Source: Alphaproteobacteria bacterium (GTDB taxonomy: Bacteria > Pseudomonadota > Alphaproteobacteria > Rhodospirillales > Magnetospirillaceae). Taken from it: a DNA stretch of 64,000 nucleotides. The position numbers and the translations under genes are program-made. The stretch is from NCBI GenBank assembly GCA_021325215.1, contig JAJPHO010000111.1, positions 1-64,000 on the forward strand, given 5' to 3'. Positions 21,330 through 49,358 of this stretch are shown here, piece after piece. The notes under the pieces are model-generated. The model saw nothing but the letters and a program-made list of their open reading frames with translations. It had not been told where the DNA came from and ran no database searches. Numbering within the stretch: the stretch's first letter is position 1; the number at the start of each line of letters is the position of its first letter.

Positions 21330-21412
21330 AGCGACCGAATAGATATAGCGCGGCGCCCGATTTTGGACGAATTTGCGGACGCTTTTAGACTCCAATAACG
21401 GGCGTTTTAAAG
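21330..21412. repeat. Transposase-binding-like sites, 22-bp period, tail-fibre end
   Basis: Three 17-mers ending in TTTTGGAC, TTTTAGAC and TTTTAAAG lie at 21352-21368, 21374-21390 and 21396-21412, their T-runs exactly 22 bp apart. A fourth, degenerate copy fits the same phase at 21330-21346. Contiguous 22-bp sites are what Mu has at its right (tail-fibre) end. The innermost copy overlaps the stop codon of the last phage gene. Confidence 0.65.
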
Positions 21413-36817: not shown

Positions 36818-37143
36818 GGCGAACTCACGAAGTTCAGCATCAGCTTTGCGTATCCGTGGCCGTCCGGACGAACCTCGCGGACCACATAGGTCGTGTTGAC
36901 GCTAGCGACCGAGACGCGGTCGTTTTGGACAGGCGGCACCGGGAAGGCCGCCAGGCGAACACCCAGAACGGGAAGTTCCGTGGTGATCGCGCTGGCGCCG
37001 TCGATCAGCTCCAATTCACGGTAGGCTTCGTCGAAGACACCCGTGATCAAGTAGGAGCCGCCGGCGGCCGGCAGGTAGGTCGCCGGCTCGCCGAACACGC
37101 CCATCAGCGGCCCCAGGACCATCGCGTCCCAGTTGACCGCCAC
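36814..37143 (-). CDS. Head-tail joining protein (gpFII-like)
   Basis: A 109-residue small beta protein (MAVNWDAMVLGPLMGVFG, then GVFDEAYRELELIDG) like the phage head-tail attachment family of lambda gpFII, which forms the ring between head and tail. GTG start at 37143. Only 38 bp separate it from the divergent tube gene at 37182; within those bases lies the point where the module changes strand. Confidence 0.65.
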   Translation of the reverse strand: MAVNWDAMVLGPLMGVFGEPATYLPAAGGSYLITGVFDEAYRELELIDGASAITTELPVLGVRLAAFPVPPVQNDRVSVASVNTTYVVREVRPDGHGYAKLMLNFVSSP

Positions 37144-43745: not shown

Positions 43746-43747
43746 TC
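43717..43747 (-). terminator. Strong GC hairpin after the portal/MuF gene
   Basis: GAGCCGGCC-GGGG pairs with CCCC-TGGCCGGCTC around a CTAA loop with one bulged base, and overlaps the stop codon at 43746-43748. A long GC stem, but no T-run follows in the minus direction. Confidence 0.45.
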
Positions 43748-45812
43748 ACCGGGAGCCTCCCTTTCCCTTCTGATACGCGGTCAGCACCCAATGGGTGTCC
43801 GGCCCCTTGCCGCCCTTGGTCAGCACGACGCGGTGCTCCTGATGCTCGACCACCACCCGGGTGGGGCCGCGCTGGCTGCTGCCATAGGCCAGGGTATGGG
43901 GCACCGCCAGAGCGGATTCCGACCCGTGTTTCGCGACGATCTTGGCCAGGCCATAGCCGCCCTTGAAGCTGTTGGCTTTGTCGCCCTCCTCGCCCCAGAC
44001 GAACGACACTGGCCCGACGCCGGCGACGTGCATGGCGGCGTCATGATCCTGGTGGGTGGCGATGACCTTGGCCATGGCGGCCAGGCCGGCCGAATGCTCT
44101 TGGGCTGGATCGTCGTGCCCGGCCGGCGCCGGCGCGCTGGTGAAGCGCCCCCGGGCGTCGTGGTGGGGGTTGCCGCCGGCCTTGGCCATGTCGTCGGCCT
44201 CGTCGGTGTCCCGCTGCACCACCGGCACCAGGTCGCAACCGCATCGCGGATGGAAGGGCGGTGCCTCGCCGGCGTCCCAGCTGTCGTCGAGATCGATCGC
44301 GCCGTCCCGTACCGCCTGCAGGCAGGCCGGGCAGTGATCCTCGTTGATGCCCAGGATCACTCGCTTCTTGGTCTTGATGCCGTAGCGCTCGTCCGCCCTC
44401 TTCCAGCTGGCCAGGTTGCCGCGGATCGACGAGGCGGCCAGCTCGTTCTTGGCGATCATGCCGGCGCGAACCGGCCCGAAGCCCCCCATGCTCTCGACCT
44501 GGTCGGCCAGCTTCGCGACGCTCCACCCCTCGGTCTGGGCGGTGGCGATCAGGTTGCGCAGCAGGCCGCGGGTGGTGTCGTCGATTTTTGAGACCAGGGC
44601 GGCGCCACGGGTCTGGGCATATTCGACCGCGTCCGGATGCGCCAGGTTGGTGATCTCGACGCGCTCTTTCGGCCCCAGCACGATGCCGGCATGGGCGCCG
44701 CCGGTCTCCATTCGCTTGGCCAGCGCGTCGAGGCCGGCATCGACGCCGGCGATTCCGGACTTCTGCAGCAGCTCGGTGGTGGCGGCCGATAGTGCCGAGC
44801 GCTCCGCCGCGGTCGCCGACGCCTCGATCGCGCCGATCGCCATGGTGTCGGCGCTCCAGCCGGCGGGCACCAGATCGTCATCGCCTCCGGCCTGGTCAGC
44901 CAGATAGCCTGTGACCTGATCGGCCTGGTGCTCGAAATAGGTCAACCACAGCTCGCCCAGCTCGTCGACATCATCGGCCATCTGCTCGTCGCCGGCCGCC
45001 TTCTTCATGACCTTGCCGCCCTTGGCCGCCGGCGCCGGCGGCTTGTCGACCTGGTTGTCATCGTCCAGAGCCGGACCACCATTGTGGCCAAGCTGGTTGA
45101 GCGGCGCCGGCGGCGGCGGCGGGTTCAGCACGTCCTTCAGCGGCACCGCGCCGGTGGCGGTGTAAATCATCGGCGTGTCGCCGTCCTCGACCTTTTCCTG
45201 CCCGCGGTTGGCCCGCACCTCGTTGATGGTGGCGCTGCCGTTCTTCAGATTGGTGTCGTCGATCGCCGCCTGCTCCTGCGGCGAGACGGCCTGATCCTCC
45301 TTCCATCTGAACTGCAGGTCAGGTCGCTTGAAGACCTGGGCGATGATCCGGTTCATGACCCGGCGCACCCAGGACTGCAGGGGGGCCAGGCCTTCTTCCT
45401 GAGCCTGCTGCGCGGCGCTCTCGGCCGTCGAGCGGTTCATCATCTTGACCGCCCACTGGCTGGACACGCTGAAGGCGTAGCAGACGAACCGGGCGATCCA
45501 CTCGTCGAACTCGTCCTTCAGCGCCCCTTCCTTGGTCTGGACGAACGCCTTGGCGATCGTCTCGGGCACGAAGCGGACTTTGCGGCGCTGGCCGGTGTCG
45601 TGCTCGAGGAGGGAGTCGAAATAGTCTTGGAATTCGGAGATCTGGTTGATGTTCCAGGTCACCGGCACGCCGGCCAGGGCGTCGGGCACCGTGCCCTCGG
45701 TATAGAACTGCAGCTTGTGCCATTCGCGGCGCAGGGCGATGTTGATCATCACCACGATCTGCTCGACCGGCGAGAAGCCGTAGATCTTGTTAGTCCTGAA
45801 ATTGCGCGGCAT
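43746..45812 (-). CDS. Portal (C-terminal part)-MuF fusion with a C-terminal PBECR-type nuclease toxin domain
   Basis: A 688-residue frame in three parts. Residues 1 to about 215 are the C-terminal half of a phage portal (RNFRTNKIYGFSPVEQIVVM, KDEFDEWIARFVCYAF, NEVRANRG); about 200 N-terminal residues are missing. Residues ~285-530 are a MuF/SPP1 gp7 head-morphogenesis domain with the HCPACLQ and HPRCGCDLVPV metal-type motifs. After a GNPHHDARGRF linker, residues ~575-688 resemble the Barnase-EndoU-ColicinE5/D-RelE (PBECR) nuclease fold, with His629 in IVAKHG and the end motif HWVLTAYQ. MuF-linked toxins are injected with phage DNA or used in phage conflict. The ATG at 45812 was an internal Met of the original portal. 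Confidence 0.72.
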   Translation of the reverse strand: MPRNFRTNKIYGFSPVEQIVVMINIALRREWHKLQFYTEGTVPDALAGVPVTWNINQISEFQDYFDSLLEHDTGQRRKVRFVPETIAKAFVQTKEGALKDEFDEWIARFVCYAFSVSSQWAVKMMNRSTAESAAQQAQEEGLAPLQSWVRRVMNRIIAQVFKRPDLQFRWKEDQAVSPQEQAAIDDTNLKNGSATINEVRANRGQEKVEDGDTPMIYTATGAVPLKDVLNPPPPPAPLNQLGHNGGPALDDDNQVDKPPAPAAKGGKVMKKAAGDEQMADDVDELGELWLTYFEHQADQVTGYLADQAGGDDDLVPAGWSADTMAIGAIEASATAAERSALSAATTELLQKSGIAGVDAGLDALAKRMETGGAHAGIVLGPKERVEITNLAHPDAVEYAQTRGAALVSKIDDTTRGLLRNLIATAQTEGWSVAKLADQVESMGGFGPVRAGMIAKNELAASSIRGNLASWKRADERYGIKTKKRVILGINEDHCPACLQAVRDGAIDLDDSWDAGEAPPFHPRCGCDLVPVVQRDTDEADDMAKAGGNPHHDARGRFTSAPAPAGHDDPAQEHSAGLAAMAKVIATHQDHDAAMHVAGVGPVSFVWGEEGDKANSFKGGYGLAKIVAKHGSESALAVPHTLAYGSSQRGPTRVVVEHQEHRVVLTKGGKGPDTHWVLTAYQKGKGGSR

Positions 45813-47110
45813 GTAGAACAGCTCGCCGGCCTGGTAATCGTTCGCCTGGCCGACGTCGCCGCCTTCTTCATGTCCTTGCGGGTCTTCTTGTAGCCGGACT
45901 GTCGCGCCTCTTTGTCCATGTCCTGGCCGACATAGCTGATCATCGTCTTCGCGGCCCGGTGGAGGACTGTAGAGTTGCGGCGCTCCACGATGCCGCGGGC
46001 TTGGGAGTTGTAGGGGATGCTGTGCATCTTCGTGATGCCGAGGCGACCGGCTAGGCCGGTGGTGGGTTCATCCCAGTTGACATTTTTCGCGCCCGAGCCG
46101 TTGTCGTAGTAGAAAATGTCGCACTGTGTCGCCGAGGTGACGGCATGGCGCAGCGCATCGGCCACCGACCGGGTGTTTTCGGCCAGATCGACGCTCCACC
46201 CGACAATCTTCCGCGTATAGACGTCGACAATGATGGTGACCTCGGGCCTGAATGGCTTTCCGCTGAGCGGGTTCGCCACCTCGGCCTTGAAAGTATGGCC
46301 GTCACCGACGAACACCGCGCCAGGCCATAGCTCGGACGTGTCACGGGCGTGATAGACACGGAACTTGCGCAGCTCCCGCGGCCCGAGGCGGCCCTCGTTC
46401 CGGGTCAGAATGCTGACCTTGTCGAGCAGGCGCCGCACCTGATGGATGCTCGGTTTCTCGACGGATTCGGGCCAGTAGTCCTCCATGATGGCGGTCAACG
46501 CCGGCTTGCGCGGATCTGCCCACAGATTGAAGAAGGTTTCCGCCCAGACAGGAACCGGGGCTTCCTTTGCCGCCTTGGGGGCGAGGGCTACGACATTGCC
46601 GCCAGCCTCCGCGCGCGCCTTCAGCCAGTTATAGACCGTGGCGCGCGTCAGGCTGCGGTCGGAGTTCGGCCGCGCATTGGCGATCCCGACTTGCTTCTGT
46701 ATTTCAGGCGGCAGCTCGCCCTTAGCGGCCATCTCAACGAGTGCAGCGACAGCCTGGCCCTGACTGATTCCGCGCGTCAACACCAGGTCGTCAACCTGCT
46801 GCAGGAGGATGGCCCGGGCGGTCATGCGGTCGCGCTGATGGTTCTTTAACTCGGCGGCCGTCTGGAGCGGAAGCGGAAGCTGTACCGCGATTGGCATGGG
46901 AGGCATCGCCTTGAGGGCAGCCGCGGCAATCGCTTTCTGCAAAGCGGCCGGAAGGCAAGAGGCGGGGTACTCGTAACCGCCTCCCTTGCCCGCGCGCTTG
47001 CGGCGCTCCCAGTTTTCCCGGGCTGCCCACAGCTGGATCGCTCGTTCTGTCTTTGGAAATCCCTTGGCGCCGATGCCCGCAATCTCAAGAGCCGTGAGCC
47101 ACTTGGTCAT
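45749..47110 (-). CDS. Mu-type DDE transposase, C-terminus replaced
   Basis: A 453-residue frame. Residues 1-60 form the Mu DNA-binding winged helix (MTKWLTALEIAGIGAKGFPK). The RNase-H-like core shows Asp270 in FVGDGH, Asp336 in YYDNGSG and Glu376 in RGIVERRN, so the DDE triad is complete. Homology ends at KTRKDM (residue 414); the last 39 residues are Arg/Ser-rich out-of-frame reading of portal DNA. Lost are the rest of the core, the C-terminal beta barrel and the MuB/ClpX contact region, so it is probably inactive. ATGA overlap with the gene upstream; no MuB gene follows. Confidence 0.8.
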   Translation of the reverse strand: MTKWLTALEIAGIGAKGFPKTERAIQLWAARENWERRKRAGKGGGYEYPASCLPAALQKAIAAAALKAMPPMPIAVQLPLPLQTAAELKNHQRDRMTARAILLQQVDDLVLTRGISQGQAVAALVEMAAKGELPPEIQKQVGIANARPNSDRSLTRATVYNWLKARAEAGGNVVALAPKAAKEAPVPVWAETFFNLWADPRKPALTAIMEDYWPESVEKPSIHQVRRLLDKVSILTRNEGRLGPRELRKFRVYHARDTSELWPGAVFVGDGHTFKAEVANPLSGKPFRPEVTIIVDVYTRKIVGWSVDLAENTRSVADALRHAVTSATQCDIFYYDNGSGAKNVNWDEPTTGLAGRLGITKMHSIPYNSQARGIVERRNSTVLHRAAKTMISYVGQDMDKEARQSGYKKTRKDMKKAATSARRTITRPASCSTCRAISGLTRSTASRRSSRSW

Positions 47111-47886: not shown

Positions 47887-48014
47887 TCGAGGGCTTCGTC
47901 GATGCAGCGAATTGCCTTCCGGAAAAGGATTGCCGTTTCGCCTTCAGGTTCTTTGCGCGGCTGGCCTGGATAGGGACGAGGACGCGGTGCCGGCCGCTTC
48001 TTGCCGCTGTTCAT
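47871..48014 (-). CDS. 47-aa basic phage protein coupled to ner
   Basis: A short frame of 47 residues: basic Pro/Arg-rich start (MNSGKKRPAPRPRPYPGQPR) and a helical end (ILFRKAIRCIDEALDQE). AAGGAAG lies before the ATG, and the ATG overlaps the stop of the Ner-like gene (ATGA), so the two are translationally coupled. The basic N-terminus suggests nucleic acid contact. It is too short for most gene finders. Confidence 0.5.
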   Translation of the reverse strand: MNSGKKRPAPRPRPYPGQPRKEPEGETAILFRKAIRCIDEALDQEVR

Positions 48015-48334
48015 GGGCGCACTTCCTTTTGAACATTACCGGCCCCACGGCCCGTGGTACGCTGGACCTGTCGCGTGGGGTTCAGTCGGTTACCTGCTGC
48101 GTCGAACCGCTCGGGAAACAGTCGTTCGACCTTCAGGCCCAGTTCATCCGCGATCGCCTGCTCGAGGTTGGCAGACGGGGTCATCAGCGCATTGCTGACC
48201 GCCTGCCTGCAGACGCCCTCTTGGTTGGCGATCTTGGTGATGGAACTGCCCCCTACGCGGAGTCGGTAAATGACCCATGCCCGCCTTTCGGCGGGATTTT
48301 TTGGGACGTCTAAGGTTGCGTTCGTGATGGACAT
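48011..48334 (-). CDS. ner: Ner-like transcriptional regulator
   Basis: About 107 residues with the Mu Ner/Nlp fold: RRAWVIYRLRVGGSSITKIA, QEGVCRQAVSNALMTPSAN and the LGLKVERLFPERFD ending match the family. Ner turns down early transcription in Mu-type phages. The start is taken as the ATG at 48334; it lacks a good Shine-Dalgarno, and the longer frame (to 48412) would run through operator DNA. It is the first leftward gene after the regulatory region, divergent from the repressor. Confidence 0.75.
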   Translation of the reverse strand: MSITNATLDVPKNPAERRAWVIYRLRVGGSSITKIANQEGVCRQAVSNALMTPSANLEQAIADELGLKVERLFPERFDAAGNRLNPTRQVQRTTGRGAGNVQKEVRP

Positions 48335-48349
48335 GGCAATGAAGATGAC

Positions 48350-48395
48350 ACACAAATTCGTGTTTTTCGAGGAAAAAACACACAATTCTGTGTTT
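48350..48395. promoter_or_regulatory. Two AATT-centred ACACA/TGTGT operators
   Basis: ACAC-AAATTC-GTGT (48350-48363) and AAACACA-CAATTC-TGTGTTT (48376-48395) are similar dyads whose centres are 29 bp apart, immediately upstream of the Ner-like gene. They probably bind Ner or another early regulator; their sequence differs from the CGGAGTT boxes next to them. Confidence 0.55.
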
Positions 48396-48523
48396 CGGAG
48401 TTTGGCCTCCAACTCCGATTGCAGGCGATATGCTAACCTGTTGATTTATCCGCTTTTTTCTCAAATCCGAAATTTCGGAGTTAGGATGGTGCGGAATTCG
48501 GAGTTTGGATTATGAACTCCGAA
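48396..48523. promoter_or_regulatory. Five-copy CGGAGTT operator array
   Basis: CGGAGTT occurs at 48396-48402, 48476-48482 and 48499-48505, and inverted at 48411-48417 and 48515-48521. Two pairs form dyads: one with an 8-bp spacer, and one of 9-9-9 bp (48497-48523) covering the repressor start codon. TCCGAAATTTCGGA (48466-48479) is a perfect 14-bp palindrome. These are likely repressor operators controlling both divergent early promoters. Confidence 0.6.
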
Positions 48524-48991
48524 ACGATAGGGCAGCGCCTTCGGAAGTTGCGCGGCAAAATGACCCAGGAAGAATTCGCTAAAATTCTTCATCTCCACAA
48601 GAACACTATTGGAAACTACGAACGCGGCGAGCGCGAGTTGGAGGTGGGTGTCATTAAGGCATTGCAAGATGCATTCTGGCTGAATGCGAACTGGCTTCTT
48701 ACGGGTCAAGGAAAGATGATTGTCGATTCGTTCGACGATATCTCGACGGAGACTGATGAAGAGCTGATGGGCCGGATTTTCGACGGCATACTGTTTTCTT
48801 ATAAGTCTGAGGGAGCTGCCATTTCCCCTCTCGACGCGGGTAAGCTGGCGGCCAGGATGCATAAGACGCTGGTCACCAAATTCCAGACCCCTGAAAGCCG
48901 ACTTATTGCCCTTCAGGGGATGCTGGCTCAGCTCCGCGACGATCTCAGAAAGCCGGTTTCCGGTACTTCTTCGAGCAAACGCTCGGCCTGA
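48512..48991 (+). CDS. XRE-type phage repressor
   Basis: A 159-residue repressor. Residues 5-60 form a Cro/CI helix-turn-helix: IGQRLRKLRGKMTQEEFAKI, LHKNTIGNYERGERE. The C-terminal ~90 residues are helical and lack the S24 protease signature, so SOS-type self-cleavage is not expected. The ATG lies inside an operator dyad, so autorepression at the translation start is likely. GGAG of the same operator also serves as the ribosome site. Confidence 0.8.
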   Translation: MNSETIGQRLRKLRGKMTQEEFAKILHLHKNTIGNYERGERELEVGVIKALQDAFWLNANWLLTGQGKMIVDSFDDISTETDEELMGRIFDGILFSYKSEGAAISPLDAGKLAARMHKTLVTKFQTPESRLIALQGMLAQLRDDLRKPVSGTSSSKRSA

Positions 48992-49082: not shown

Positions 49083-49269
49083 ATCTAAAAGCGTGCGCCA
49101 AATCGGGAAAATTTTCCGAGGCTGTGGGGATCTTCGTCTAAAAGGCGCCCGCCGATCTAACGCCCCCTGGCTAGGGGTTTTTCTGGCGGAAATACTGGGG
49201 ATTCAGTCCCAATATGTCCCGGAATGTCCCGTCGAATCCCGCAACTGCGTCTGTCTAAAATCGGTCACC
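49083..49269. repeat. Three spaced inverted transposase-site-like repeats, repressor end
   Basis: TCTAAAA-core 17-mers at 49083-49099, 49136-49152 and 49253-49269 are inverted copies of the TTTTAGAC sites at the other end. The outermost matches the complement of 21352-21368 in 14 of 17 positions. Their A-runs lie 53 and 117 bp apart, close to the wide uneven spacing of Mu attL sites. Confidence 0.6.
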
Positions 49270-49358
49270 TCTCAATAATAGAGCATCTGTGTTTATCTGT
49301 GTTCATCCCATTCATCCGTGTACGCCGTAGGCCTGTTGGTTAAGCTGCCTTCGGCGGG

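Follow-up and report, generated by a model that had tools for sequence, protein, structure and literature searches.

A phased GGGAY array in the left end of a Mu-like prophage as a proposed packaging site

The window analysed here, a stretch of 64,000 nucleotides, carries a Mu-like prophage at 21344-49277 with the 5-bp sequence ATAGA on both flanks. We consider it likely that the left end of this prophage combines an attL of the Mu/D3112 type, with core sites for the transposase, and an array that is the packaging site (pac) for a gp27-type terminase. On the minus strand, the cores read as L1 (TTTTAGAC, 49253-49260, 17 nt from the terminus), L2 (TTTTAGAC, 49136-49143) and L3 (TTTTAGAT from the end inwards, 49083-49090), the last two placed by site search and by the layout of relatives' left ends. 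At the right end, on the plus strand, they read as R1 (TTTTGGAC, 21361-21368, 17 nt from the terminus) and R2 (TTTTAGAC, 21383-21390, 22 bp from R1). Between L1 and L2 lies the proposed pac, a minus-strand array of four GGGAYN5 units in 10-bp phase (GGGATTCGACGGGACATTCCGGGACATATTGGGAC, 49206-49240) that occupies nt 38-72 reading inwards and is the single match in the window even when two mismatches are allowed (0.02 expected). The array is absent from the preliminary description of this DNA and is a more general finding than the core sites.

In the mechanism we propose, the transposase would bridge L1, L2, L3 and the R1-R2 pair (core TTTTRGAC read inwards), nick beside the 5'-TA/TG termini and join the ends to staggered target cuts, which would give the 5-bp ATAGA repeats. 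The GGGAY units, four in number and spaced by one turn of the helix, lie 38-72 nt from the end; they would form the packaging-initiation site and be bound on one face by a gp27-type small terminase. Cleavage by the large terminase would fall in host DNA immediately beyond this end, with headful packaging proceeding to the right. Both contacts, of the transposase with L1-L3 and R1-R2 and of the terminase with the array, we infer from sequence. Groenen and van de Putte (1985) reportedly mapped the packaging site of Mu to the left end, and its position, which we take to be about nt 35-58, is consistent with the array at nt 33-67 of Mu. No description of a repeat at the Mu left end, or of what is recognised at pac, was found in the literature searched, which included few subscription papers.

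Distribution of the array and type of small terminase

The exact array occurs 15 times in 13 of the 55 family genomes, compared to no match for the reversed controls. Three of the 15 stand with TTTTRGAC, and 12 lie behind another L1 core (e.g., GACACTAGGTCTTGGAG), with TGT 30-38 nt outside the array. When IMG/VR was searched, the raw pattern matched at least 120 stretches, compared to 105 for the reversed control, so the pattern alone is not specific, and in this collection only the link to the transposase, the orientation and the terminase are informative. Among these at least 120 array loci (120 listed), 23 hold a Mu-type transposase, compared to 0 of 102 control loci, and in 23 of 23 such loci among the matches listed the array lies upstream of the transposase in the same orientation. 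Across 177 scored transposase loci, two controls never reached three mismatches or fewer, and at this threshold the array was present in 32 of the 145 transposase-chosen loci (the transposase loci minus array-chosen loci and duplicates), with both controls at zero. The array is found at nt 33-67 of Mu and nt 45-79 of B3, with two mismatches each, while none was found at up to four mismatches in the stretches examined of MP22, D3112, RcapMu, RR1-B and KS10. In the window it starts at nt 38, inside the 31-45 nt range set for the Mu-type pac grouping that we propose (array plus gp27-type small terminase).

The small terminase of B3 belongs to PF11985, and those of MP22, RcapMu and RR1-B are of the DUF1804 type. 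We tabulated the terminases of 26 loci with the array (at most three mismatches) and of a further 24 located on long contigs, together 50 loci in 48 records, which were hand-picked from the 177 before the terminase was known, except for L151 and L217. Terminases were linked to loci by strand and distance, with the L176 link uncertain. Of the 26 array loci, 22 were linked to gp27-type (PF11985) terminases and none to DUF1804, with four undecided (L172, L169, L173 and L183); the 24 others comprised 13 with DUF1804, nine with PF11985 and two with neither (L211 and L156). This hand-linked contrast of 22/0 versus 9/13 gives a Fisher value of 1.9e-5, which overstates independence since the loci are related. 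When the terminase lies on the locus itself, the array (at most three mismatches) is present in 15 of 37 gp27-type and 0 of 17 DUF1804 loci, a count that includes duplicates and one array-chosen locus and in which many gp27 loci seem to stop before the phage end. Twenty additional records were searched with PF08822 alone, and nine of them passed the cut-off.

Nine PF11985 loci have more than three mismatches. In four of them (L170, L178, L189 and L201) the score for a weaker array is far higher than on the opposite strand, and in L168 it is somewhat higher. Inspection by eye suggests a CCGGAR variant in L160 and L176, whereas L218 and L166 gave nothing clear. L160 and L176 are Pseudomonas elements in which a CCGGARNNNN run with a 10-bp period stands near a TG end, upstream of the transposase; it is possible that this run is a variant of the array.

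These comparisons show that the array follows the terminase better than it follows the transposase site. The contrast is sharpest within the TTTTRGAC clade, where the elements with the array (L032, L074, L157 and L084) are all gp27-type, whereas those without it (L094, L105 and L144) are all DUF1804. The L1 of L157 is ATTTAGAC, 17 nt after TGT, and the L084 record starts within the array. Outside this core, five elements with mapped termini (L086, L217, L223, L228 and L191) have DUF1804 and no array; in L081 there is no array and, in its 42-kb record, no DUF1804. Together, these findings indicate that the array, as judged across the loci compared, tracks small-terminase type.

We regard as unlikely a reading of the GGGAY array as a transposition element, whether an intrinsic bend or a site for HU between L1 and L2, or a relocated enhancer for the transposase N-domain. 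The array does lie between L1 and L2 and is helically phased, and ends without it have shorter L1-L2 spacers (79, 82 and 93, versus 116-128). HU acts between L1 and L2 in Mu attL, and the Mu array sits where HU probably bends the DNA. On the other hand, the array is common to phages with differing L1 cores, and three TTTTRGAC ends with a DUF1804 terminase do without it. It is also present in B3, whose transposition proteins are described as different (PMC5977238).

Returning to the array as pac, we lean towards a wider reading in which four GGA(Y) units in 10-bp phase, some 32-72 nt from the left terminus, would be the general pac recognition element of gp27-type transposable phages, including Mu. 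Such an element would evolve as one module with the terminase and independently of the transposase and its sites, and a swap to DUF1804 would be accompanied by loss of the array and a shortened L1-L2 spacer. Since the repeat tracks one small-terminase family, recognition at pac becomes directly testable in Mu. The array also offers a sequence handle for the left ends of many Mu-like prophages, and it sets a packaging code apart from the transposition code within attL.

Genes of the resident prophage and the operator region

Between the left end and the transposase stand two divergent regulators identified by domain match, a c-type repressor (HTH_3, 48512-48991, plus strand) and a Ner-like regulator (HTH_35, 48011-48412, minus strand). 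The transposase A gene (PF02316 and rve, 45749-47110, minus strand) encodes a Mu-type DDE transposase with a Mu DNA-binding domain, but it is broken after codon 420, with unrelated residues beyond; its homology to the 767-aa full-length transposase of L032 stops at residue 445 of the latter. A portal gene truncated at its 5' end (43746-45812, minus strand), which also contains head-morphogenesis and PBECR1 regions, overlaps the broken gene; no homologue of this portal was found in L032 or L044. Tail sheath, tail and portal families are found between the two prophage ends, and a DUF4376 protein adjoins the right end. As a separate observation, the PBECR1 domain (barnase/EndoU/RelE-like nuclease) lies C-terminally in this portal/head-morphogenesis protein.

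The prophage copy in the window is defective. The run-on of transposase into portal is best explained by a deletion that took the terminase genes too, and no PF11985 or PF08822 small terminase was found in this genome, which is what loss of the packaging genes through such a deletion would predict. The fusion at 43746-47110, presumably the product of that deletion, leaves the element without a full transposase and terminase of its own. Both att ends look intact, and the element might be moved in trans. In one relative, translations of L032:1-1230 show the left end adjoining apparent head genes of a phage, which would fit the integration of one Mu-like phage into a second.

The preliminary description placed an operator array 0.75-0.9 kb inside the left end and took it for the counterpart of the Mu transpositional enhancer, within an att-enhancer architecture conserved around a different recognition sequence. 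The distance was right, as the repeats TTCGGAGTT and AACTCCGA at 48394-48525, the presumed c operators, lie 752-883 bp inside the left terminus at 49277. That these operators double as an enhancer is nevertheless very unlikely. Although the operators are at the right distance, position alone is a weak argument, since the repressor gene fills most of the gap. The Mu operator works as an enhancer because its repressor and its transposase have a DNA-binding domain in common. Here, the repressor and the transposase N-terminus showed no similarity by BLASTP and match unlike Pfam domains (HTH_3 versus HTH_Tnp_Mu_1), so the logic of the Mu operator does not carry over, and no exact end-type core was found near the operators. 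On these two grounds we do not adopt the enhancer reading. The attL/attR part of the proposed architecture holds, with its 5-bp duplication, three-site left end and 22-bp R1-R2 spacing.

Core sites and termini

A chance origin of the three TCTAAAA copies as A/T-rich matches beside a prophage has next to no probability: although the motif is a short 7-mer and some relatives have another core, it is confined to the two ends, with just four occurrences in 64 kb (0.89 expected by dinucleotide shuffles; four reached in 0 of 100 shuffles), the target duplication is flush with the ends, and the reading is untenable because relatives' left ends keep the sites, with spacing and orientation maintained in those compared. 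The three plus-strand copies start at 49084, 49137 and 49254, one base above the positions first reported (49083, 49136 and 49253), and the spacings given for them, 53 and 117, were correct; for GTCTAAAA the start positions are 49136 and 49253. The inverted form, TTTTAGA, is present a single time in the whole 64 kb, at 21383. The broader GTCYAAAA occurs seven times in the window (0.90 expected), four times as end sites and otherwise at 36923, 57894 and 57951.

At the right end, inverted copies had been proposed across 21352-21412. R1 (21361) and R2 (21383) bear this out, but the third, TTTTAAAG at 21405-21412 on the plus strand, is a weak and degenerate candidate R3 that matches at 6 of 8 positions, 22 beyond R2, and a 6-of-8 match at +22 recurs in only 4 of 18 right ends. 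All three left sites are present, compared to two and a degenerate third on the right. When the R1-R2 spacing was allowed to vary from 19 to 25, the pattern was found at 18 places in 11 of the 55 family genomes (window included), all with 22 bp, versus four matches for the reversed control.

Scanning genome contigs with a single protein gave no relative, whereas an alignment scan found relatives; the IMG/VR locus L001, 100% identical over its 12,650 bases, was left out as a relative. We compared 11 left ends, selected for containing the TTTTRGAC core, starting 17 nt before L1, except that L078, which has no clear L1, was read from a TGT picked by eye. The three-site plan is present in 9 of the 10 left ends other than that of the window, L078 being the exception, with one core mismatch in the L1 of L032 and L072. 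L1 and L2 are 116-128 bp apart in the window, L033, L488, L032, L079, L072 and L074, compared to 82 in L094, 79 in L105 and 93 in L144. The L2-L3 distance is 42-44 bp in 9 of the 11 left ends, which upholds the likeness to Mu spacing suggested at the outset; L105 has 35, and the window, with 53, is an outlier about one helical turn above its relatives. Among the loci scanned, 24 had an exact TTTTRGAC within 4.5 kb upstream, with 42 matches on the expected strand, whereas two controls gave 24 and 13. Many of the remaining loci stop short of the phage end, and some that show the end have another core. By their layout, the window ends read as a Mu-type attL/attR pair with core TTTTRGAC.

More distant relatives lack this core. 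The preliminary description had named conserved ends without these sites as the finding that would count against it, and such ends do occur, in L086 (53% identical transposase), L081 (49%), L217, L223, L228 and L191, but they have the same kind of terminus and carry another core at the same place. In these six ends the terminus has the form T(A/G)T.GGGGAGGTGA or TATAGGGGGGTGAT, and the core position, at a similar distance, is taken by TTTTGGCAC, GTTTGGCAC, TTTCTGCAC or the like; MP22 has TTTTGACAC at the corresponding place. Since relatives at 49-53% identity keep the kind of terminus and carry another core, the core drifts within the clade. The terminus is older than the core, with TTTTRGAC a trait of one clade, and these six left ends point to termini and transposase core evolving at unequal speeds.

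The target-site duplication ATAGA stands at 21339-21343 on the right-end side and 49278-49282 on the left-end side (both plus strand). The flanks share six bases, AATAGA, so the duplication can slide by 1 bp, and we prefer 21344-49277 because the distance from terminus to core is fixed in relatives: 17 nt before R1, as in relatives' right ends, was applied to both window ends. The right terminus is 5'-TATAGCGCGGCGCCCGA (21344-21360, plus strand), with the same start in relatives, and the left terminus, supported by the duplication and by relatives, is 5'-TATTGAGAGGTGACCGA reading inwards (49261-49277, minus strand), which puts the left end 3 bp past the limit first assigned to it. Both termini are 5'-TAT rather than TG..CA, and relatives have TG or TA. 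Among the 18 right ends matching the pair pattern, 17 have T(G/A)TAGCG 17 nt before R1 (nine TA, window included, and eight TG), the exception being L053 with ACT. The flanks of these right ends differ from one another, apart from three copies in G032 that adjoin similar intergenic repeats. On the left, T(A/G)T stands 17 nt before L1 in 10 of the 10 ends having an L1, where the 17 nt came from the right ends and the window duplication. Terminal triplets among the 11 left ends are TAT in five and TGT in six, and the record L105 begins exactly at the predicted left terminus.

Two loci of one genome (L063 and L067) have identical right ends with different flanks. A second target-site duplication was sought in three other elements and none was found, with no left-end core on the stretches examined. 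In one record with both ends (L074/L234), the flanks are not a duplication and one end is TG, the other TA. An empty-site search using host DNA yielded nothing usable, its best hits having 66% identity over part of the flank. Separately, three contigs of genome G032 (C21, C34 and C37; loci L065, L068 and L069) hold three copies of one right end, each adjoining a similar intergenic repeat resembling GGAGCCGC...GGCGTCTCGAAGG, and insertion beside such similar repeats suggests a target preference.

Comparison with known transposable phages

Mu has three sites at its left end and, at its right, an R1 and an R2 that lie close together. The window resembles Mu (NC_000929) in both respects, in the repressor and Ner-type repressor that adjoin the left end and in the array (nt 33-67 in Mu). 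It differs from Mu in that its core, TTTTRGAC, is not the Mu site, its termini are 5'-TA, and its repressor domain family differs from that of the transposase N-domain.

Its transposase is 36-37% identical to those of the D3112/MP22 group (Casadabanvirus), with which it shares terminal motifs (TGTAGCGCGGCG on the right, AGGTGAC on the left). This group is described as ending in TGT and as carrying three sites of 22 bp at each end, at 10/93/124 on the left and 4/46/93 on the right, a sequence and spacing unlike those of the window (PMC4378225). MP22 further differs in its DUF1804 terminase and in having no array at up to four mismatches in the stretches examined. B3 (Beetrevirus), on the other hand, shares the left-end array (nt 45-79) and a gp27-type small terminase with the window, but its transposition proteins are reported to differ and its early genes to be inverted (PMC5977238). 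In L599 and L232, we observed that the first bases of the B3 3' end are nearly identical to the MP22 right end, although the B3 transposition proteins reportedly differ.

The alphaproteobacterial Mu-like phages RcapMu and RR1-B share the 22-bp R1-R2 spacing (annotated in RcapMu, by eye in RR1-B), and the RcapMu ends start with TGTAG. Unlike the window, both have the core CTTYYGGAC by eye, no array and DUF1804. KS10 provides a precedent, as a Mu-like phage reported to lack TG..CA, and no direct repeats were found at its flanks (PMC2628397), unlike the 5-bp duplication of the window. Since KS10 also lacks them, we treat TG..CA termini in Mu-like transposable phages (proposed Saltoviridae) as usual, not obligatory, and the TA termini of the window, with their target duplication, bear on the strictness of the CA-3' rule.
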